From Desulfuromonadales bacterium (GTDB taxonomy: Bacteria > Desulfobacterota > Desulfuromonadia > Desulfuromonadales > Syntrophotaleaceae): a DNA stretch of 39,026 nt. The notes beneath the pieces were generated by a model. The model saw only the letters and a list, made by a program, of their open reading frames with translations, made no database searches and was not told the origin of the DNA. Below, piece by piece: positions 1,699-12,721 of this stretch. The DNA is taken from assembly GCA_013619105.1 (NCBI GenBank), contig JABXKU010000017.1:1-39026 (forward strand), written 5' to 3'. Every line of letters starts with the position of its first letter. Position 1 is the first letter of the stretch. Both the position numbers and the translations under genes were made by a program.

Positions 1699-1727
1699 TT
1701 GACAAACCATGCGCTAAGCCAGATAAT
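1699..1727 (+). promoter_or_regulatory. Sigma-70 promoter of the MarR-type gene
   Basis: TTGACA (1699-1704) and GATAAT (1722-1727) are separated by exactly 17 bp. The start point would fall near 1734, inside the AT-rich block 1731-1747 that resembles the palindrome downstream of the gene, which would suit autorepression. Confidence 0.75.
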
Positions 1728-1763: not shown

Positions 1764-2183
1764 ATGACTGAAAAAAAGAGAATGAGTGAGATCATCGAAC
1801 GCGTCGGCCAGGCGCTGGTCAACGCCAAGGTGGACAAACTGAAAAAAATCGGCGCACCTGAAATCAACCTGACCCAGTTTCAGTACATCAGCGTGATCAA
1901 TCAAAACCAAGATCTGACCTTTACCGACATGGCCCAGGTACTGAAGCTCAGCAAACCTGCCGTCACCTCGATTATCCACAAGTTGGTCGACCAGGGTTAT
2001 GTCACCAAGAAACAGTCGGCGAATGACCGGCGGATGTTTCATATCTACCTGACGGAATCCGGTAAACAAATTGCCGAAGCCTACGAAGACTCGCGACGGG
2101 AGTACGTAAACGGCATCCATCGCCGGCTAAATGATGGCGAGTTCAAACAGCTGCTGGAATTGATGGAAAAGGCTCTACACTGA
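1764..2183 (+). CDS. MarR-family transcriptional regulator
   Basis: A 139-residue protein with the size and winged-helix layout of MarR repressors. An N-terminal dimerisation helix is followed by the recognition region (LTFTDMAQVLKLSKPAVTSI) and a wing with the family's D-R-R signature (SANDRRMFHIYLT), then C-terminal helices. Such proteins are dimers that release DNA on binding small phenolic or drug-like ligands. The frame can start at a TTG (1749), but the ATG at 1764 is preferred; the AAGG ribosome site is close (3 nt), so the start is not certain. It precedes the RND efflux genes in the same direction with a palindrome in the gap, so it probably controls that pump and itself. The ligand cannot be read from sequence. 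Confidence 0.9.
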   Translation: MTEKKRMSEIIERVGQALVNAKVDKLKKIGAPEINLTQFQYISVINQNQDLTFTDMAQVLKLSKPAVTSIIHKLVDQGYVTKKQSANDRRMFHIYLTESGKQIAEAYEDSRREYVNGIHRRLNDGEFKQLLELMEKALH

Positions 2184-2292: not shown

Positions 2293-4731
2293 ATGGCCAG
2301 CCTCCCGATGCGCAATACGGCCGCTCCGAACCTTTTGACTCATACGGGTCGCAGGATCTGCATGGCAGTCTGGCTACTGACCCTGCTGTTCATGGCCCAG
2401 CCGGCCGCTGCCGCTCCTCTGCGTATCGGTGTAATCATGGATGGCCCTTGGGCCGGAAACGCCCCGCTGCTTGAGCTGTTCAAGACAGAAGTCATCGCCC
2501 TGACCAGTGGCGAATTCCCGATCAGTTTTCCGGCCGACAAAACCATCACCAGCGACTGGACCATGGCGGGAGTTAAAGGTGCAGCCGACCAACTATTGCA
2601 AGACCCAGACGTTGACCTGCTGTTGGCTATCGGAGTTCTGACTTCCCACGATCTGGCCCACCGCGGCCCGCTACCCAAACCGACGGTGGCACCCTTCACC
2701 GTCGACCGCGCGATTCAAAACTATCCGTTGCTGCATGAAGCCAGCGGAGTATCCAATTTCTGCTACCTGGCCTCACCCTCACCGATCCGCCGGGACATCC
2801 AGGCTTTTAGTGAACTTCTTCCGTTTAAACGACTGGCGGTTCTGTCCAACCGCCCTTACCTTGAAGCCATTCCCGCCCTTACAGACGAGCTTTCTGCCAA
2901 CCTGGCCAGCAAGGGCATCGCCATGACCTCCGTCGCTGTCGATAGTTCAGCCGAAGCAGCCCTTGCAAACCTGCCGCAAGATATCGATGCGGTTTATGTC
3001 ACCCCTCTGTTGCGCCTGCCGCAAGCAGAACTTAAGCTTTTGATCGAAGGACTCAAGTTGCGGGGCTTGCCGAGTTTTTCCTATTTTGGGCACAGCGAAG
3101 TAGAACAGGGGATCTTGGCCGGGGCCGCACCAAAGTCGGATTTTCCGCGGCTGGCCCGTCGCACTGCCCTGACGATCCAGAGCATCCTGCTAGGCAAGAA
3201 TGCCGGAGAACTGCCGGTTTTTTTCTCCCAGGAAGACCGACTCAGTATCAATATGCGCACCGCCCGAGCCATCGACTTTTCCCCCACCTGGGAACAACTT
3301 ATTGAGGCGGAGTTGATCGCCGAAGACACCAATGGCCCGACCCGGGAAATGACCCTAGCCGGAACCGTCAAAGAGGCCCTAAGTATCAATCTCGACCTAG
3401 CAGCGGCCGATCGCCGCATCGCCGCCGGTGAAGCCAAGGTACGTAAAGCCCGGGCAACCCTGCTGCCTCAGCTGACCGTTATCGCCAATGGCTTGCTAAT
3501 CGATAAAGACCGTGCCGAAGCCAGCTTCGGCAGTCAAGCCGAACGGTCTGTAACCGGAGCCTTGGTATTGGAACAATCCCTCTATTCCGAATCACGGCGC
3601 ACCAACTATCACCTACAGGGGCAACAGCAGGAGGCTAGGCAGCAGGAACGTCGCCAACTGCGTCTCGACATCGCCCAGGCGGCGGCAGCTGGTTATCTCA
3701 CTGTGCTGCGCGCCAAGACCCTGCAAACCATCCAGACCAATAATCTACTTGAGACCCGTTCCAACCTGAATTTGGCCCGCCGCCGCCAAGCCGTCGGCTT
3801 TAGTGGCCCTGCTGAAGTCTATCGTTGGGAGAGCCAATTAGCGCGGGACCGTAAAGCAGTTGTGCAAGCGGCCACCCAACGTTCTTTGGCCGAAATCGAC
3901 CTCAACCGGCTTCTGCAGCGTCCCGCAGAAGAGGCCTTCACCACAGCAGAAGTCAAGCTGGGCGCTCCTGAGTTTCTTGTTTCTAATCAACGACTCGAAC
4001 CCTATTTGGCCACCCCCGCTGCCTTTGCCCGTTATCGTGACTTCATGGTCCAGGAAGGCCTAGCCGAGATCCCGGAGCTGCAGCGTATCGACCGGGCTAT
4101 CGACGCTCAAGAACGGATCCGGCTGGCGGCCCGCCGTTCTTTCTGGACCCCGGAAGTCTCCTTGCGCGCTGACATCAGTCAACATTTCTACGAAGGAGGT
4201 GCAGGGGTTGACTCTCCCTTCACGGGCAGCCTGCCCATCGAGATCCCCCAGTCCAACGACACGGATTGGAGCGTCGGCCTCAATCTGGCTCTACCCCTGT
4301 TCACCAGCGGTGCCCGCAGGGCCGAGCTAGAGCAAGCCAACGAAGAGTTGGCACAGCTGCACATCGAGCGCAAGGCATTGTCCGACCGATTTGAACAACG
4401 CATCCGCTCGGCCTTGCAGCGAGCCCGAGCTTCTCAGACCATCATCCGCCTGTCGGCTCAGGGAGCTACCGCCGCCCGTAAGAACCTGGACCTGGTAACG
4501 GATGCCTATTCCCGTGGTCTGGTATCGGTTGTCGAACTAATCGATGCCCAGAATGCGGCCCTGGTCGCCGATAGCGTGGCGGCTAGCTCTGTCTACGACT
4601 TTTTTATCGATCTGATGGAAACACAACGTGCTGTCGGTCGTTTCGACTTTTTTCTCGGCCCGCAACAACGGGAAGACTGGTTCGGCCGCCTGGAAGAATT
4701 CTGGCATCAAGACGCCACCTCCGCCCCCTGA
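2293..4731 (+). CDS. Periplasmic substrate-binding-like domain fused to TolC-family outer-membrane channel
   Basis: An 812-residue exported protein, first gene of a tripartite efflux operon. After a signal peptide ending near PAAAAPL, residues about 40-335 resemble ABC-transporter substrate-binding proteins of the PF04392 type: RIGVIMDG at the mature start, a Rossmann-like LLLAIG strand, the PAFSYFGHSE-like segment and the closing NMRTARAIDF block, which in that family marks the C-terminal lobe. Residues about 350-800 form a standard TolC/OEP repeat pair: VKEALSINLDLAAADRRI opens the first coiled coil, LPLFTSGARRAELEQA and LVTDAYSRGLVSVVELIDAQ mark the second. Ordinary TolC proteins are about 450 residues, so the N-terminal lobe is extra. 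The ATG at 2293 follows AAAGGA at a 9-nt distance; an upstream in-frame TTG (2275) overlaps that site and is less likely. What the binding lobe recognises is unknown. Confidence 0.88.
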   Translation: MASLPMRNTAAPNLLTHTGRRICMAVWLLTLLFMAQPAAAAPLRIGVIMDGPWAGNAPLLELFKTEVIALTSGEFPISFPADKTITSDWTMAGVKGAADQLLQDPDVDLLLAIGVLTSHDLAHRGPLPKPTVAPFTVDRAIQNYPLLHEASGVSNFCYLASPSPIRRDIQAFSELLPFKRLAVLSNRPYLEAIPALTDELSANLASKGIAMTSVAVDSSAEAALANLPQDIDAVYVTPLLRLPQAELKLLIEGLKLRGLPSFSYFGHSEVEQGILAGAAPKSDFPRLARRTALTIQSILLGKNAGELPVFFSQEDRLSINMRTARAIDFSPTWEQLIEAELIAEDTNGPTREMTLAGTVKEALSINLDLAAADRRIAAGEAKVRKARATLLPQLTVIANGLLIDKDRAEASFGSQAERSVTGALVLEQSLYSESRRTNYHLQGQQQEARQQERRQLRLDIAQAAAAGYLTVLRAKTLQTIQTNNLLETRSNLNLARRRQAVGFSGPAEVYRWESQLARDRKAVVQAATQRSLAEIDLNRLLQRPAEEAFTTAEVKLGAPEFLVSNQRLEPYLATPAAFARYRDFMVQEGLAEIPELQRIDRAIDAQERIRLAARRSFWTPEVSLRADISQHFYEGGAGVDSPFTGSLPIEIPQSNDTDWSVGLNLALPLFTSGARRAELEQANEELAQLHIERKALSDRFEQRIRSALQRARASQTIIRLSAQGATAARKNLDLVTDAYSRGLVSVVELIDAQNAALVADSVAASSVYDFFIDLMETQRAVGRFDFFLGPQQREDWFGRLEEFWHQDATSAP

Positions 4732-4856
4732 GCTACCGAGCTTAACAAAGAAACTGGCAGATATATCGCAACCCGACTTAAACGCATTTGACCGATCTGA
4801 GTTTTCAGTTTTATTTTGGCAGCCAAGCCATAATGGCCATCAAGGAGAGATACCCC

Positions 4857-5957
4857 ATGTTAAACCGCACCCTGCTGGTGTTACTGTTGCCTCTATGTCT
4901 GCTCGCCTGCGGAAGTGAACCCACTCCGCAACCGGAGCTGATTCGACCAATTCGTTACCAAAAGGTCAAGCCGGGCAGTAGCCAGCTGAAACGGACCTTT
5001 TCCGGCATGGCCCAGGCGGGTGTGGAGTCACGACTTAGCTTTCGTGTTCCCGGTGCGGTGGAAGAATTGGCGGTTCAGGTGGGGGATAAGGTCAAACAGG
5101 GGCAATTGATCGCCCGACTGGATGCTACCGACTATCGACTACAGACACAGGAAGCACAAGCGGCCTTGGCCAACGCACGAGCCCAGGCCCGTAACGCCGA
5201 AGCCAATTACGAGCGGGTGAGAGGACTGTACGAAAACCGTAACGCTTCGCGCAATGACCTGGACGCCGCTCGAGCGGCTAGCGAATCGACCGAAGCGCTG
5301 GTCCGGGCCAGCAACACCCGCCTGGAGCTGGCCCAGTCCCAGCGGGGCTACACCCGGCTCACCGCTCCCAGCGCCGGCGCCATCGCCAGCGTGCCCATTG
5401 AGGTCAACGAAAACGTTGCCGCCGGCCAGATGGTGGCACTGCTGACCTCTGGAAGGCTGACCGAAGTCGGCTGTACCGTTCCAGAGAGCCTCATCACCCA
5501 GATCACACAGAAGATGCCGGTCCGCGTTGTGTTTGACGCCCTATCGGAACGGACGTTTGCGGCCAAGGTCACCGAAGTCGGCGTCGCGGCTACCGGCCAA
5601 GGAACCACTTTTCCAGTCACCGTGCGCCTTGATCAAAGCTCCGGTCAGATTCGCCCCGGCATGGCAGCGGCTATTATTTTCCTCTTGCCTAAAACCGGTG
5701 ACGACACTCCAGTTTTAGTAGCACCTGAGGCTATTGGAGAAGACCGTAAAGGGCGCTTTGCCTTTGTAGTCGAATCCGCCAAGGATGGGCTAGGGATTAT
5801 CCATCGGCGGGCAGTTACCATCGGTGAACTGACTTCGGACGGCCTGGAAGTGTTCAGCGGCCTACAAGACAGTGACCTGGTCGTCACCGCCGGAATCAGC
5901 CGCATCCACGAAGGCCAGCAGGTACAGATTCTTGCCAGCAACGAGGTTCAGCCATGA
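4857..5957 (+). CDS. RND efflux periplasmic adaptor (membrane fusion lipoprotein)
   Basis: A 366-residue AcrA/MexE-type adaptor that links the inner-membrane pump to the TolC-like channel. It is a lipoprotein: a hydrophobic leader ends in the lipobox LLAC before GSEPTP. The order of parts is typical: lipoyl half-motif (GAVEELAVQVGDKVKQGQLI), alpha-helical hairpin (ALANARAQARNAEANYERV), second lipoyl half (LTAPSAGAIASVPIEVNENV), beta-barrel and membrane-proximal domains. The frame extends upstream to a TTG at 4788, but the ATG at 4857 has AAGGAGA at good spacing and begins the leader. Its stop overlaps the pump gene start by 4 bp (ATGA), indicating translational coupling. Confidence 0.92.
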   Translation: MLNRTLLVLLLPLCLLACGSEPTPQPELIRPIRYQKVKPGSSQLKRTFSGMAQAGVESRLSFRVPGAVEELAVQVGDKVKQGQLIARLDATDYRLQTQEAQAALANARAQARNAEANYERVRGLYENRNASRNDLDAARAASESTEALVRASNTRLELAQSQRGYTRLTAPSAGAIASVPIEVNENVAAGQMVALLTSGRLTEVGCTVPESLITQITQKMPVRVVFDALSERTFAAKVTEVGVAATGQGTTFPVTVRLDQSSGQIRPGMAAAIIFLLPKTGDDTPVLVAPEAIGEDRKGRFAFVVESAKDGLGIIHRRAVTIGELTSDGLEVFSGLQDSDLVVTAGISRIHEGQQVQILASNEVQP

Positions 5958-8900
5958 ATCTGACCCGGGCCGCTCTAGAAAAAAACCGGGTCACCCTGGT
6001 CGCCCTGCTAGTCATCACCCTGGCCGGGCTGTTCCACTTTTCTACCCTGCCCCGCGCGGAAGACCCCGGATTTGTGGTGCGGGTAGCCCAGGTACTGACC
6101 TACTTCCCCGGGGCCAGCCCCGAACGGGTGGAGCAGTTGGTCACCGACAAGCTGGAAAAGGTCATTCAGGAAATCCCCCAGATCGACTATATCGAGAGTG
6201 AGTCGAAGCCGGGCGTTTCGATCATCTGGGTCAACGTCCTTGAGCGCCACAAAGAGATGCGGCCCATCTGGGACGATTTGCGGCGCAAGGTTACTCGGGC
6301 CACTGGCGAACTGCCTGACGAAGTGGTCGGCCCCTTTGTCAACGATGAATTCGGTGATATCTTCGGCATCATCGTCGCCATCAGCGGCGAAGATTTCAGC
6401 TACGCGGAACTCAAAGAGGTTGCTGACGATTGCCGCAATGAGCTGCTGCTAAGTCCGCACATCGCCAAGGTTACTATTCAGGGTATTCAGCAGGAACGGA
6501 TCTTCGTCGAGTATCAAAACGCCCGACTGGCGGAACTTGGGCTGTCGCCCTTTCAGCTCAAAGGCATTCTCGAAGCCCGCAATATTATCATTCCCGGTGG
6601 TGAAATCTTTACCGATCGCGAGCAGATCGTCCTTGAACCGACCGGCAACTTCGATTCGGTAGCCGATCTCAAGCGCACCGTTATCACCCTGCCCGGCCGC
6701 GACGACGTCGTCTATCTAGAAGATATTGTCAGCATTCGCCGCGACTACATCGACCCGCCGACCAAACGCGTACACTATAAAGGCAAGCCGTCCCTGACCC
6801 TGGCTCTTAACCTGCGCGAAGGAGGTGACATGCTGGCCCTCGGCGATGAGGTTAAGCAGTCCCTGGCACGCTTTCGCCAAGCCTACCCCATCGGCGTCGA
6901 TTTCGACATTGTCGCTTTTCAGCCCGAGCACGTTAAACGCAAGGTCGATGAGTTCGTCACAAACCTGCTGCAGGCGATGGTCATCGTATTGGCTGTGATG
7001 CTGGTGTTTCTCGGCCTGCGCACTGGCTTGGCGGTTTCCAGCTTGATCCCTATGGCCATGATCATGGCCTTGCTGGTGATGGGCCTGCTCGGCATCGGCA
7101 TCGACCAGATGTCTTTGGCGGCCATGATTATCGCCTTGGGCATGTTGGTCGACAATGCCATCGTCATGTCCGAATCGATCATGGTGCTGATGGGCGAAGG
7201 AAAATCAGCGGTCGAGGCGGCTATCGAGTCGGCACAGGAACTGAAGATTCCGCTGCTGACCTCCTCCCTGACCACTGCCGCCGCCTTTCTGCCCATCTAC
7301 CTGGCCAAGTCGTCGACGGGCGAATACACCGCACCGCTATTCAAGGTGGTCACCATCACCTTGCTGTGCTCTTGGATTCTGTCGCTGACTATGACCCCGC
7401 TGTTTTGCGTCTATCTAATTCGCATCAAACCTTCTTCCAAAAAGAGCGGCTACAATACGGCCTTTTACCGCCGCTATCGTGGCTTCTTACTGTTGATGCT
7501 ACGCAACCGATTCATGACTCTGGCCGCGATAATGCTGGTCTTTGTGGTCGCCATGGCCAGCTTCCGCTTTGTACCGAAGATGTTTTTTCCCCCTCACAAC
7601 AAGCCGATCTTCAGTGCCGAACTGCGCCTGCCCGTTGGCACCCCGTTGAAACGCATGGAAGCGGTAGTACAGCAGATCGAAAACTTCATGCAAACGGAAA
7701 TGATGGCTGACCCGAAACAGGACAAAGAAGGTCTGGTCAGCTGGGTCAGCTATATCGGCTCGGGAGCGCCCCGTTATATGCTGCCCTACTCCCCCGAGGC
7801 GCCTAGCCCCGAATACACCTATATGCTCATCAATGGCACCAGCCGCGACCATAATCTTGCAGAAATGATTCCGCGCCTGGAGGCCTACTGCCTGAATAAC
7901 TTTCCCGACCTGACGCCGAAGATTCGGCCGCTGATTCTCGGCCCGCCCATCGATAACCCCGTCGAAGTGCGCCTTTCGGGCAAGGATACGGACCGTCTTT
8001 TCGAGCTGGTACAACAGACCAAGGATCAATTGGCCCAGATTCCCGGCACCCGCAACATCACCGATAACTGGGGCGCACGCACTAAAAAGCTGGTGGTTCA
8101 GATCAACCAGCCGAGAGCCCTGCGGGCCGGCCTTACCAGCCGCGATATCGCCGTATCTTTACAGACGATCCTGAGCGGCATTCAAACCACCGAATACCGC
8201 GAAGAGGACGAGCTGATTCCCGTCACGCTGCGCTCCGTGGCCGCCGACCGCAAAGATATCGGTAAACTAGAAAGCCACAACATCTTCGTACAACATACGG
8301 GGCAATCGGTGCCATTGAAACAGGTGGCCGACATCAACCTCGCCTGGCAGCCCGGTAAAATCATTCGTCGTGATCGAGTCCGGACCGTCACTGTACAATC
8401 CAACATCGACAGCGGTGCCAACGCCATCGCCATCGGCCAACAAATCGAAGGGTGGCTAAAAGAGCAGAGTCAAAGCTGGCCCTTTGGCGACAAATATCAA
8501 CTCGGCGGGGAGATCGAAACCTCCGGTAAAGCCAACACCTCGATCGCTGCCAATCTGCCCTTGACCGCGCTTCTAATTCTGCTACTGCTCGTGGCCCAGT
8601 TCAACTCCCTGCGCCGTCCGCTGATTATTCTGCTGACCATCCCACTGGGAATGATTGGTGTAACTTTCGGCCTACTGGTGACCGGTTCTTATTTCGGTTT
8701 TATGACCCTGCTGGGCATCATCGCCCTGTGCGGGATCGTTATCAACAACGCCATCGTGCTGATCGACCGTATCAATATCGAGATCGACAAGAACGGTCAG
8801 GATCCGGCCATGGCGATCCTTGAATCGGCCCAGCGTAGACTACGGCCGATTCTACTCACCACAGCGACCACCATGGGCGGCCTGATGCCCCTGTGGTTAA

Positions 8901-9058
8901 GTGGGGGACCCATGTGGGAACCGATGGCCATCTCCATTATTTTTGGCCTGCTGTTTGCGACCATTCTGACCTTGGGTCTGGTGCCGGTCCTTTATAGTCT
9001 CTTCTTTCGCGTCAACTTTCGCGACTTCTCCTATCGGCCGCCCGGCGGCACGATCTGA
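5954..9058 (+). CDS. RND-family efflux pump, inner-membrane permease
   Basis: A 1034-residue permease with the RND plan: an N-terminal membrane helix, a large periplasmic porter domain, a block of helices at about 330-530, a second porter domain and a second helix block to the C-terminus. The sequence fits the HAE1-like efflux group rather than the heavy-metal group. In the TM4 proton-relay motif the text reads LVDNAIVM (D400-N401), where AcrB has two adjacent aspartates. The TM10 position that holds lysine in AcrB reads INNAIVLID, so asparagine replaces it. This suggests a simpler proton relay, also seen in related uncharacterised pumps. It is the last gene of the operon before a strong terminator. 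The substrate is unknown; the upstream MarR gene suggests an inducing organic compound. Confidence 0.93.
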   Translation: MNLTRAALEKNRVTLVALLVITLAGLFHFSTLPRAEDPGFVVRVAQVLTYFPGASPERVEQLVTDKLEKVIQEIPQIDYIESESKPGVSIIWVNVLERHKEMRPIWDDLRRKVTRATGELPDEVVGPFVNDEFGDIFGIIVAISGEDFSYAELKEVADDCRNELLLSPHIAKVTIQGIQQERIFVEYQNARLAELGLSPFQLKGILEARNIIIPGGEIFTDREQIVLEPTGNFDSVADLKRTVITLPGRDDVVYLEDIVSIRRDYIDPPTKRVHYKGKPSLTLALNLREGGDMLALGDEVKQSLARFRQAYPIGVDFDIVAFQPEHVKRKVDEFVTNLLQAMVIVLAVMLVFLGLRTGLAVSSLIPMAMIMALLVMGLLGIGIDQMSLAAMIIALGMLVDNAIVMSESIMVLMGEGKSAVEAAIESAQELKIPLLTSSLTTAAAFLPIYLAKSSTGEYTAPLFKVVTITLLCSWILSLTMTPLFCVYLIRIKPSSKKSGYNTAFYRRYRGFLLLMLRNRFMTLAAIMLVFVVAMASFRFVPKMFFPPHNKPIFSAELRLPVGTPLKRMEAVVQQIENFMQTEMMADPKQDKEGLVSWVSYIGSGAPRYMLPYSPEAPSPEYTYMLINGTSRDHNLAEMIPRLEAYCLNNFPDLTPKIRPLILGPPIDNPVEVRLSGKDTDRLFELVQQTKDQLAQIPGTRNITDNWGARTKKLVVQINQPRALRAGLTSRDIAVSLQTILSGIQTTEYREEDELIPVTLRSVAADRKDIGKLESHNIFVQHTGQSVPLKQVADINLAWQPGKIIRRDRVRTVTVQSNIDSGANAIAIGQQIEGWLKEQSQSWPFGDKYQLGGEIETSGKANTSIAANLPLTALLILLLLVAQFNSLRRPLIILLTIPLGMIGVTFGLLVTGSYFGFMTLLGIIALCGIVINNAIVLIDRINIEIDKNGQDPAMAILESAQRRLRPILLTTATTMGGLMPLWLSGGPMWEPMAISIIFGLLFATILTLGLVPVLYSLFFRVNFRDFSYRPPGGTI

Positions 9059-9123: not shown

Positions 9124-9155
9124 AAGGCCCCGGCAATAGCCGGGGCCTTTTTCTT
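9124..9155 (+). terminator. Rho-independent terminator of the efflux operon
   Basis: An 11-bp GC-rich stem (AAGGCCCCGGC / GCCGGGGCCTT, 9124-9134 and 9139-9149) with an AATA loop is followed by a T tract. It is 65 bp after the pump stop codon. Confidence 0.9.
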
Positions 9156-9534: not shown

Positions 9535-10431
9535 TCAGAACTCTCTACCATTCTGCGCATCAACCAGAGCCTCAAAACCAGCAATCACATCAAACAGTTC
9601 TTCGGTCACACTGTTCTGGCGCAAAGTATGATAATCAGCGCGAAAAACAGCACACATCTCTTCGATATTTTTTTCGGCCCGCTGCATGGCGGCCAAGCGA
9701 GCGGCGTTCTCCGCAGCCAGGGACGCAGCAAAGGCCCGAAACAAAGAGACAAACAGATACTCGGCGATCAGAGCGGCAAACAGGGGCTGCCAGGGCGGGG
9801 AGTAAAGGGGTAGGCAGCGCCCCGGCCACGGTTGGCCACTCATAGTGGCCAGCCAATCATCGTCGGGAGGCAGCAGGTCCACCTGAAGTTGTTCATAATG
9901 GGTGGCCTTAGCGGGGGCATTATGAAACAGCAGCAGACGGGTTTCACCGTGCTGGCTTCGCCATCCCTCGAAACGGAGCAACACCTGTTGTACAGCTCCG
10001 GTGATCGCCTGGGCCGAAGAGGGCAACCGAAAGAATTCCCGCGCCTCCTCAAGCCGTTGAGCAAGCCCCGCAGCCACCTTTTCACCGACCGCCCAAACCA
10101 GGCAACAGCCACCCTCCTGGCACATCTGGCGATAAACCTCTTCGACCCCATCGAGCAACAATTCGTTAAAACGCCCGACCATACCCTGATCCGAGCCAAA
10201 GACCAGCAACACCGTCTGGCGGGGCCGTTTAATTGACCCAACCAGCGGCCGATCACGCAAAACAGCCTGCAAGCCCATTTCAACGGTCCGATAATAATCG
10301 TCCAGAGATCGTAGCGATCGTTCGTACTGATGGATATTGACCGCGGCCATGGTCTTCATGGTGCGCACCACGGTATACAGATCGTCGGCGCTGCGAATGC
10401 GTCGCTGCAGTTCCAGCAGAGCCTGGCTCAT
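9535..10431 (-). CDS. atpG: N-type ATPase gamma subunit
   Basis: A 298-residue central-shaft subunit, last gene of the ATPase operon. The N-terminal helix keeps the family pattern ([23 protein letters not shown]), equivalent to the RI..KAMKMVAAAK region of ordinary gamma subunits, and the C-terminal helix ([10 protein letters not shown]...[20 protein letters not shown]) matches the coiled-coil partner. The middle is strongly diverged, as usual for N-type gammas. Its start overlaps the atpA stop by 4 bp. No clear terminator is seen after it; the sequence passes into repeat copy 2 within about 45 bp. Confidence 0.88.
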
Positions 10432-11939
10432 GGTGCTTCCTTCAGCGCCTCGGCGGCAGCTTGCTGGAGTACCCGCAAATCGTCGTCATCGAGTTTTTCG
10501 CCCCCCTCTATTCTGGATGTGATCTCCGGCAGCAACACCAGCGCTTCGCAAACCCGATTCTCGGCCCGGGCCATGTCCCCTTCGCCGATGTCGTCGAACA
10601 GACCACAATTGACTGCATGCAGAACCATCACCTGCTCGACGGCCGTACGGGGCGCACACTGACCCTGTTTGAGTACGGCCCGTACCCTCCGACCGCGATT
10701 CAGCAGCTGGCTAGTCGCATCGTCGAGGCGAGTTCCGAAACGAGCAAAGGCTTCCAGTTCGGTGAACTGGGCATAGGCCAGGCGCAGATCACCGACCACG
10801 GCGCGATAAGCAGGCAGTTGAGCCTTGCCGCCGACTCGGGAGACCGAACGGGTGATATCGACGGCCGGCAGTAGCCCCTTCTGGAAGAGACCGGGGGACA
10901 GATAGATCTGACCGTCGGTGATGGAAATCAGGTTGGTGGGAATATAGGCGGCCAGATTCTGCGCTTCGGTTTCAATGATCGGCAAAGCGGTGAGGGAGCC
11001 GCCACCGAATTGCTCCTTTAGCCGGGTGGCCCGTTCCAGAAGTCGCGAATGAATATAGAAGATATCGCCTGGAAAGGCTTCCCGACCGGGGGGCCGGCGT
11101 AACAACAGGGACAATTCACGGTAGGCCCGAGCATGGCGGGTCAGGTCGTCATAGACCACCAACACATCCCGCCCCTGTTCCATAAAATATTCACCAATGG
11201 TGGTAGCGGCATAGGGAGCAATGTACTGCTGGCCCGGCGGATCATCCCCTTCGGCGACTACCACCGTGGTGTAATCCATCGCCCCCCGTTCCCGTAACTG
11301 GGCCACCACCGAAGCGACACTGGATGCCCGCTGACCAATAGCACAATAAACACACAAGACCCCCTTGTCGTGCTGGTTAAGAATGGTGTCAACGGCCAGG
11401 GCCGTCTTACCGGTCTGCCGGTCACCGAGAATCAACTCGCGCTGACCACGACCAATGGGGACCAGAGCGTCGACCACCTTGATGCCGGTCATCAGCGGTT
11501 CAGTGACCGGCAGCCGCTCCATGATAGCCGGGGCCGGTCGCTCCACCGGCCGGCGCTCATGATAGGGAACCGGCCCACTTCCGTCCCGCGCCTGTCCCGT
11601 CGGATCAACCACCCGGCCAAGGAGCCCCTCGCCCACCGCCACATCCAGCACCCGGTCGGTGCTGATCACCTCATCACCGGCTTGCAAGGCGCTATAATCA
11701 CCGAGCATGGCCACCCCGATCTCCCGAGAGTCGAGGTCTAAAGCCAGCCCCAGTACGCCTCCGGGAAAAGCCAGCAGCTCTTCGCTGCGAACCCTTTGCA
11801 GGCCTCGAACCCGGGCGATGCCCCGCCCGACATAGGAAAGCCGTCCGACCTGCTGAAGCAGCAGCTGCGGCTCCATGGTGGTTATGGTCCGGCGCAAAAC
11901 TCCGAGGGTTTCGTCCAGCAAGCCACTGAAGCCGCTCAT
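10428..11939 (-). CDS. atpA: N-type ATPase alpha subunit
   Basis: A 503-residue F1 alpha subunit (non-catalytic nucleotide site). It has the beta-barrel N-domain, the P-loop GDRQTGKT at 172-179, the [10 protein letters not shown] Walker-B region, and the [14 protein letters not shown] motif followed by the VGGKAQ signature segment. The N-terminus lacks the usual delta-binding extension seen in housekeeping alphas. It overlaps both neighbours by 4 bp. Its context in the order D-C-Q-R-B-E-F-A-G identifies the N-type subclass. Confidence 0.95.
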
Positions 11940-12721
11940 AAACTCCTCCGTCCCCCTTCCCCAGTCCCGTCAACCTCTTCTAGCTGCAGGTCGATCTGCC
12001 GCTCCAGTTCGGCAAAGTAGCTGTCCACCCCCCAAGACAGCTTCAGTCCGCCGAGGATTAATTCGATACCCAGGGGCATATCGTCTGCGATGCAATAGCT
12101 GATCGCCGCGTCGGGACCAAGTAGCGGTTGCAGGCCGGCTTCAAGACGGCTACGGATGGGATCCTCCAGAGTTACCGCGCTTCGCACCAGGACCCCGGAG
12201 GTTTCCGCCGCCGTGCGACAACTCGACTGCTGCTCCTGGTCCAAAGCGGCGAAACGGGCGACAAAACGCTCCGCTAACAGCGTAGCCAGATCGCAACCGG
12301 TTAGATCGTTGAGGGCTTTACGGGCGATCTGCAACACTTCGCTGCCGATGCGCTTTTTCAGGTCGGCCATGAACAGCTGACGGTCTCGACAGACTGCGGC
12401 CTTCCAGGCTTCGGTTAATGCGGAGGCTTCAGCTCGTCCCTGGTCGATCAATTGCTGACGGTGCTGACCAGCTTCTTCGGCTACCTGGTGCAGACTCTCC
12501 GTCCGCGTTTCTTCCAACTCCCGATTCAGGCGCTGATATTCGGCGGCCTCTTCTCTAGCGACCTCATGCTCCTGGCGAGCCTCCTGCAGCCGACCTTCGA
12601 TGCGGGCCTCGCGCCGCTCCATAGCCTGCAGAATCGGCCCGTAAAGAAACCGCTTTAACAGCCAGATCAGCAACAGAAAGTTGACCGTCTGGGCTGCGAC
12701 GGTAAACCAGTCGATAAGCAT
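11936..12721 (-). CDS. atpF: N-type ATPase b subunit with delta-like C-terminal domain
   Basis: A 261-residue peripheral stalk protein, longer than the usual 160-residue b subunit. One N-terminal membrane helix ([20 protein letters not shown]) leads into a long charged coiled coil (about 30-130). The last roughly 90 residues look like the delta/OSCP C-terminal domain: [19 protein letters not shown] followed by [22 protein letters not shown]. No separate atpH (delta) gene occurs in this operon, which supports a fused role. It starts 4 bp after the atpE stop and overlaps atpA by 4 bp. Confidence 0.88.

Follow-up and report, generated by a model that had tools for sequence, protein, structure and literature searches.

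The 39,026-nucleotide stretch analysed here (the window: contig JABXKU010000017.1 of assembly GCA_013619105.1, from a Desulfuromonadales bacterium of the Syntrophotaleaceae) carries on its forward strand a gene for a TolC-type exit duct fused to a substrate-binding protein (SBP) fold. The gene, at 2293-4731, is one uninterrupted open reading frame (ORF) of 812 residues inside a stop-free frame of 841 codons, and these coordinates, the length and the single frame, as given by an earlier sequence-only reading, were confirmed by the sequence. The protein consists of a signal region, a class I SBP fold and a whole TolC in a single chain. The gene order in the window is marR, fusion, adaptor and permease of the resistance-nodulation-division (RND) type, with the following features:

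1767..2183, + strand: MarR-family regulator (PF01047, 7.7e-15)
2293..2415, + strand: signal-peptide-like N-terminal region, residues 1-41, without a lipobox (from the sequence; helix predicted at 19-33, with low model confidence around it)
2416..3318, + strand: class I SBP-fold domain, residues 42-342, a distant PF04392 relative (profiles, fold)
3319..3348, + strand: short linker, residues 343-352 (alignment, column entropy, dip in pLDDT)
3349..4728, + strand: complete TolC/OEP exit-duct module, residues 353-812 (PF02321, fold, profile alignment)
4788..5957, + strand: RND periplasmic adaptor (TIGR01730, 232 bits, above cut-off)
5954..9058, + strand: RND permease (PF00873, 538 bits)

The coding start of the adaptor is uncertain, 4851-5957 being the part that was searched, and a lipobox-like LLAC lies near the start of its ORF. 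An RND pump and adaptor had been named as the partners of the duct, with no ATP-binding cassette (ABC) transporter gene adjacent. Both points were borne out, the latter for the seven annotated neighbours of the fusion in the window between 635 and 12721.

Concerning the N-terminal half, a PF04392-type binding lobe had been proposed; the fold stood, while formal membership of the family did not. The window protein scores 14.7 bits against PF04392 as a whole and 18.0 bits as an isolated domain, under the curated gathering cut-off of 25.9, whereas a fusion from Sulfuricurvum passes with 38.6 bits. The window domain is a distant PF04392 relative outside Pfam membership. PF04392 was matched at E<=0.1 by 31 of 42 fused N-domains (best 2.1e-10) and at E<=0.01 by 25 of 46 whole fusion proteins. 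The 42 domains make up a profile alignment (A3) selected from the 46 rows of the alignment of fusions (A2); A2 lacks L034 and L079, and A3 lacks L034, L036, L038, L039, L051 and L079. The A3 profile finds PDB entries 3lkv (3.7e-11), 3lft (4.6e-7) and 6hni (1.5e-5). AlphaFold2 modelled the full-length protein with a mean pLDDT of 88.2 and a pTM of 0.74, and the N-domain by itself with 95.2 and 0.90. Foldseek with the full model returned TolC-type structures first and 3lkv, 3lft and 6hnj/6hni from rank 39, and with the N-domain model these SBP entries lead, with E down to 1.8e-17. VIA-align of the N-domain placed 3lkv nearest (Z 26.0, rmsd 3.3, 288 aligned), followed by 3lft and 6hni (Z 24.9) and 6hnj (20.9), the next entries being below 18. 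Since relatives, profile and predicted fold agree, the N-terminal half is placed in the SBP fold. The available text of one report gives the bound ligands as tyrosine for CD0873 (6hni), phenylalanine in 3lkv and tryptophan in 3lft (PMC6816091). With the PF04392 SBPs (TrpX, VC_1101 3lkv, SP1069 3lft, CD0873 6hni) the domain shares the class I fold and the last hinge motif, iN...A; unlike them, it is fused, has no importer genes seen adjacent, lacks a conserved pocket and bears signature residues of its own.

The C-terminal half is, as had been proposed, a complete TolC/OEP repeat pair. PF02321 matches it with 125.3 bits over two stretches, the repeats separately with 61.9 and 78.2 bits (cut-off 22), and it was matched in all 46 A2 rows; by Foldseek, E reaches down to 4.1e-18 and the target TM up to 0.84 among the matches listed. 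The profile searches of the two halves and the structure prediction thus agreed with the sequence-only reading, PF02321 passing, the PF04392-like fold being present via family profile and model, and the model matching TolC and TrpX-type SBPs. The type I secretion TolC subfamily (TIGR01844) scores 98.1 bits, under the curated 225, so the protein is not filed there. Like other outer membrane factors (E. coli TolC, OprM, CusC, MtrE), it has the OEP repeats, the fold, an operon with adaptor and pump, and the Asp of the LDA motif, D751 being aligned to that residue of the TolC inner helix, which we take to have a role in the aperture. Unlike the TolC family, it carries about 300 additional SBP-fold residues at the mature N-terminus, shows no lipobox and belongs to a clade of its own. 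TolC residue 3 aligns with profile position 340, so the SBP is joined where the free N-terminus of TolC would be, and the join, measured between fixed columns 339-355, is 17 residues long in 38 of 46 rows (range 15-18). A lipoprotein anchor on the fusion was considered and rejected: the window protein has no lipobox, and a simple pattern search gave one lipobox-like pattern in 46 rows (L052). Five NCBIfam models match the protein and none spans the fusion; no description of an SBP-TolC fusion was found among the listings of literature searches confined to open PubMed Central text, some directed at the fusion or its SBP family and others at SBP structures, YbjP or the TolC superfamily. Neither half is new; it is their union in one outer membrane factor that appears to be so.

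The fusion recurs widely. It was detected in 11 of 13 other genomes of the same genus and family (in G004 split over two contigs), the two without it being the least complete (67% and 78%). A scan of one genome per species, which finds only members keeping both of the peptide patterns used, gave 111 pattern matches, of which 48 were confirmed, at 47 loci. All but one of these loci (46/47) hold fusions, two of which (L034 and L051) are truncated at a contig end; the exception, L079, has an SBP standing alone. By record titles they fall in 12 named lineages (Thermodesulfobacteriota, Acidobacteriota, Pseudomonadota, Planctomycetota, Zixiibacteriota, Myxococcota, Hydrogenedentes, Gemmatimonadota, Rhodothermia, Eisenbacteria, Latescibacterota and Bacteroidota). 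Most rows come from metagenome-assembled genomes (MAGs), so an individual phylum label may reflect wrong binning; in the tree, the Planctomycetota row clusters closely with rows from Gammaproteobacteria. Records without a MAG mark include Desulfuromonas sp. CSMB_57, Porticoccus sp. W117 and Desulfoluna spongiiphila. A plasmid collection adds Sulfuricurvum kujiense (Campylobacterota), whose fusion is annotated merely as 'ABC transporter substrate binding protein', and Cetobacterium somerae (Fusobacteriota); that search returned six records (Sulfuricurvum, four Cetobacterium and Aureimonas), of which Sulfuricurvum and one Cetobacterium were examined. An artefact, either two genes joined by a frameshift, which the sequence-only reading had named as its own refutation, or a misassembly, is accordingly of negligible probability. 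The frame is single and free of stops, the architecture recurs in 46 of the 47 loci with a nearly constant join length, and fusions of like length with 50-91% identity occur in 12 relatives, three of them in one-contig genomes (G003, G006, G026).

The same fusion was also found next to RND genes elsewhere, as had been suggested for a search: an RND-type adaptor lies directly downstream in 37 of 46 fusion loci, with an RND permease in view in 33 of these. A pump adaptor of either kind is present in 42 of 46, the other five being of HlyD type (downstream in L048, L049 and L051, upstream in L054 and L057). An RbbA-like ATPase is in view in four of these five, and the Sulfuricurvum fusion is also of the HlyD/RbbA kind. 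Where ABC genes were found beside fusions, they accompany an HlyD-type adaptor and an RbbA-like ATPase, and to judge from that adaptor these systems would be exporters. An importer permease with its ATPase was not found beside the fusion in the window, where an adaptor and an RND permease stand instead. Engine labels could be given as RND in 35 rows and ABC in six (L048 by its HlyD-type adaptor alone, at a contig end), with two engine changes on the tree; L045, L053, L058, L063, L065, L068 and L071, with no engine visible, were left unlabelled. As the fusion is kept with RND and with ABC partners, it goes with the exit duct through changes of engine, and an accessory specific to RND pumps is rejected as a general explanation by the ABC-linked fusions. 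Seven pump and regulator queries gave no match in L045, L058 and L063, and L034 ends at a contig end. The 18 kb covered at L045 and at L063 gave no match to the RND, adaptor or ABC queries; the next gene downstream in L045 is an AbgT-family transporter, and the next one upstream in L063 is cytochrome c-like. Upstream of the fusion stands a MarR gene in the window and in L034-L039 (six of 46 loci), and a TetR gene in Sulfuricurvum. Gene context, read from these upstream regulator genes, gave no hint of a ligand.

When TolC modules were placed in a tree, the fused copies grouped in a single clade (SH-aLRT 100), separate from 18 unfused TolCs from the order, nine of them belonging to this genome, with one change between fused and unfused. 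In a tree of N-domains, 43 fused domains lie on one side of a branch and 22 stand-alone domains on the other (100). A single fusion event is likely, because fused TolCs and fused SBPs each form one clade; these are quick trees supported by SH-aLRT only, several terminal branches are long, and one join, between two long unfused rows, drew a warning. With the root placed by hand on L116, the nearest stand-alone SBPs are L110, L079, L111, L113, L112 and L114. Histidine-kinase genes adjoin four of the six (L110, L079, L111, L113), which suggests that this SBP branch is often used for sensing elsewhere; no kinase was seen in L112 and L114 among the nine neighbouring ORFs tested. An unfused two-gene version was not detected, as no ORF in nine loci around stand-alone SBPs matched the fused-TolC profile at E 1e-3. 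The SBP proteins L111:8376-10625 and L113:7055-9304, of 750 residues, adjoin dCache-HAMP hybrid histidine kinases, the former with two matched stretches; this too is an unusual use of the branch. Outside the window, the same genome also bears at G000:C185 ~72700-76440 (L117:6699-10442, - strand) a 1248-residue ORF with four tandem PF04392 domains (638 bits, four stretches); L117 also contains an ORF that resembles an ABC ATPase (L117:3663-4472).

The fused domains share a set of residues that are rare among stand-alone relatives, for which 11 rows were compared, drawn from nine proteins, of which two are tandem and contribute two rows apiece:

2440..2442, + strand: D50, near-invariant in fused domains; D in 2/11 stand-alone rows
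2488..2490, + strand: E66, near-invariant in fused domains; 0/11 stand-alone rows
2677..2679, + strand: K129, invariant in fused domains; 1/11 stand-alone rows
2716..2718, + strand: Q142, near-invariant in fused domains; 0/11 stand-alone rows
2764..2766, + strand: Y158, first hinge, invariant in fused domains; 0/11 stand-alone rows
3157..3162, + strand: R289-R290; R289 invariant in fused domains, 2/11 stand-alone; R290 in 45/46 rows, 0/11 stand-alone

The signature D-E-K-Q-Y-R-R is exact in 41 of 45 complete rows (exceptions L058, L060, L073 and L074). Six of its residues lie in the lobe holding the N-terminus and Y158 lies at the first hinge, the topology being read by hand; lobes, cleft loops and borders were assigned by hand from predicted strands and the usual layout of class I folds. 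The SBP half has a mean column entropy of 2.09 bits and the TolC half one of 1.92, and the hinges are the best-conserved part of the former (1.41 bits, versus 2.11 and 2.19 in the lobes). The ratio of nonsynonymous to synonymous rates (dN/dS) between the window and L033 is 0.078 for the SBP half and 0.116 for the TolC half, and between the window and L003 it is 0.110 and 0.065. In these two close pairs the sequences indicate that the SBP half is under purifying selection, as the TolC half is.

For the lobe, the sequence-only reading had offered sensing or capture of a periplasmic ligand, or gating of the channel, as possible roles. We give about even credence to a control collar on the exit duct, which would sense something or control assembly or opening. 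The protein probably trimerises like TolC, in which case the three SBP-fold domains would surround the duct from outside as a collar close to the equator, at about the level occupied by YbjP. According to the available parts of two reports, YbjP is an accessory lipoprotein of E. coli that sits on the TolC equator, where the N-terminal helix of TolC also lies, and is compatible with AcrAB and MacAB (PMC13082787, PMC13095208). In the fusion, the SBP would no longer do its original transport job, its bilobed fold having been retained for control. With hinges that would still be mobile, a putative periplasmic ligand or envelope partner could bind the conserved site of lobe 1 and hinge, and binding may change or stabilise the readiness of the duct for opening by the adaptor; one exit duct would then serve RND or ABC engines. 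In favour of this stand the fold and homology, the attachment of the SBP at about the mature N-terminus of TolC, the near-constant linker, the purifying selection on the SBP half in the two close pairs, the conserved hinges, the seven-residue signature, the engine swap with the fusion kept and the histidine kinases beside most of the nearest stand-alone SBPs. A stronger version, a ligand-gated outer-membrane exit duct whose three SBP domains close on a periplasmic ligand, appears rather doubtful to us. Closure would have to be passed through the short linker to the TolC equator, licensing or blocking opening, and if true this would put efflux control at the outer membrane, independent of the RND or ABC engine.

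Several observations weigh against a control collar. The amino-acid-binding residues of TrpX-type SBPs are not conserved in the fused domains. For S. suis TrpX these are T108, A127, T129, D152 and N233, as listed in the available part of the source (PMC9382623). The equivalent positions 115, 135, 137, 161 and 241, mapped by eye through the family-profile alignment, are variable in 46 rows (V/L/I/A at 115, F/G/L at 135, I/L/V at 137, L/F/S at 161, R/Q/S/gap at 241), so the known ligand chemistry is gone and an amino-acid-binding SBP of the TrpX type was rejected. Cleft-facing positions also vary widely across the family, as expected without a common ligand. The conservation of ligand-pocket residues, from which the sequence-only reading would have drawn support for a binding role, was not seen at the known amino-acid pocket; what is conserved is another group of charged residues, near-invariant and particular to this family, along with the hinges. 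Either another ligand may be bound via lobe 1 and hinge, or the conserved residues may form an interface. The SBP half shows 1.3-1.6 times the amino-acid changes of the TolC half in the comparisons with L035, L037 and L040 (dN 0.332, 0.420 and 0.485, versus 0.228, 0.316 and 0.309), pairs in which synonymous changes are near or past saturation. The linker, near-constant in length, is in sequence the most variable stretch (mean column entropy 2.88 bits), and model confidence dips at the join (mean pLDDT 69, residues 341-350); together these weaken the case for tight mechanical coupling. In the plasmid fusion of Cetobacterium somerae (L032:7440-9617) the SBP half has become short and degenerate, scoring 19.5 and 7.7 bits compared with 261 bits for the well-kept TolC half, and is retained beside RND partners, so a binding site is not always needed. 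The fusion is patchy in the rest of the order, with only four of 84 genomes outside the family. Finally, YbjP, the closest precedent, is described in the available text as not required for efflux under standard laboratory conditions (PMC13082787).

Part of this evidence would suit a collar that is structural only, a reading that is possible and that we rank below a control collar. Here ligand binding would have been lost, and the domain would serve to guide the adaptor or to stabilise or position the duct, whether in the outer membrane or in the peptidoglycan; it would take the place of the lipid anchor in OprM/CusC or of YbjP, the accessory lipoprotein. The lost amino-acid pocket and variable cleft, the degenerate domain retained in Cetobacterium, the near-constant linker length and the near absence of lipoboxes from the fusions fit it, as does the recruitment of YbjP by E. 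coli TolC at the same region, as far as the available text describes it (PMC13082787, PMC13095208). The invariant charged residues and conserved hinges, however, look like more than a spacer, and the other TolCs of this genome gave no match to the fused-SBP profile, which points to no general need for such a part. Periplasmic capture, in which the SBP domains would bind the pump substrate and so concentrate it locally ahead of export, is unlikely and ranks below both collar readings. The fold is nearest to binders of aromatic amino acids, and RND pumps, such as those of AcrB type, can take substrates from the periplasm. To judge from the alignment, though, the domain would lie at the exit duct, away from the RND entrance, and the same fusion stands with HlyD/RbbA-type ABC genes; it is chiefly this exit-end position and these partners that make capture less likely, the ABC partners of six rows arguing against the feeding of ligand to an RND pump. 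The loss of the known pocket residues also speaks against it.

TolC-type ducts are commonly regarded as passive tubes that adaptors open. An SBP fold built into the duct, present in about a dozen phyla and kept across a change of engine, suggests that the duct is additionally controlled or anchored at its outer-membrane end. The control collar that we favour can be set beside two known arrangements. The first is YbjP-TolC, with which the fusion would share a periplasmic globular module at the TolC equator, its position in the fusion being deduced from the alignment and no homology being claimed; unlike YbjP, a separate and lipidated protein, the SBP fold is here covalently part of the channel. 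The second is that of SBP sensors beside histidine kinases, which the fused domain resembles through its nearest stand-alone relatives, with the difference that kinase-side SBPs are separate proteins or tandem pairs, and the fused one is attached to a channel. The fusion family offers a concrete test case for whether an outer-membrane channel itself can sense.

Concerning the remaining features of the window, the four genes from marR to the RND permease are bracketed by two candidate signals, both of them consensus matches only:

1699..1727, + strand: promoter-like TTGACA-17-GATAAT ahead of marR (11/12 consensus positions)
9124..9149, + strand: terminator-like hairpin after the RND gene (11 pairs, 9 G-C, then a T-rich tail)

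The scan gave seven promoter-like sites, versus 3.5 expected in shuffles, and ten terminator-like hairpins, versus 8.2 expected. Upstream of marR, a cysteine synthase gene is located at 635-1564 (TIGR01136, 374 bits, above cut-off), and an ORF whose start is similar to that of this gene is also found upstream in L035. On the minus strand, at 9538-12721, subunits gamma, alpha and B of an 'alternate' F1F0 ATPase (TIGR03323, TIGR03324 and TIGR03321, each above cut-off) are encoded convergently with the efflux unit.

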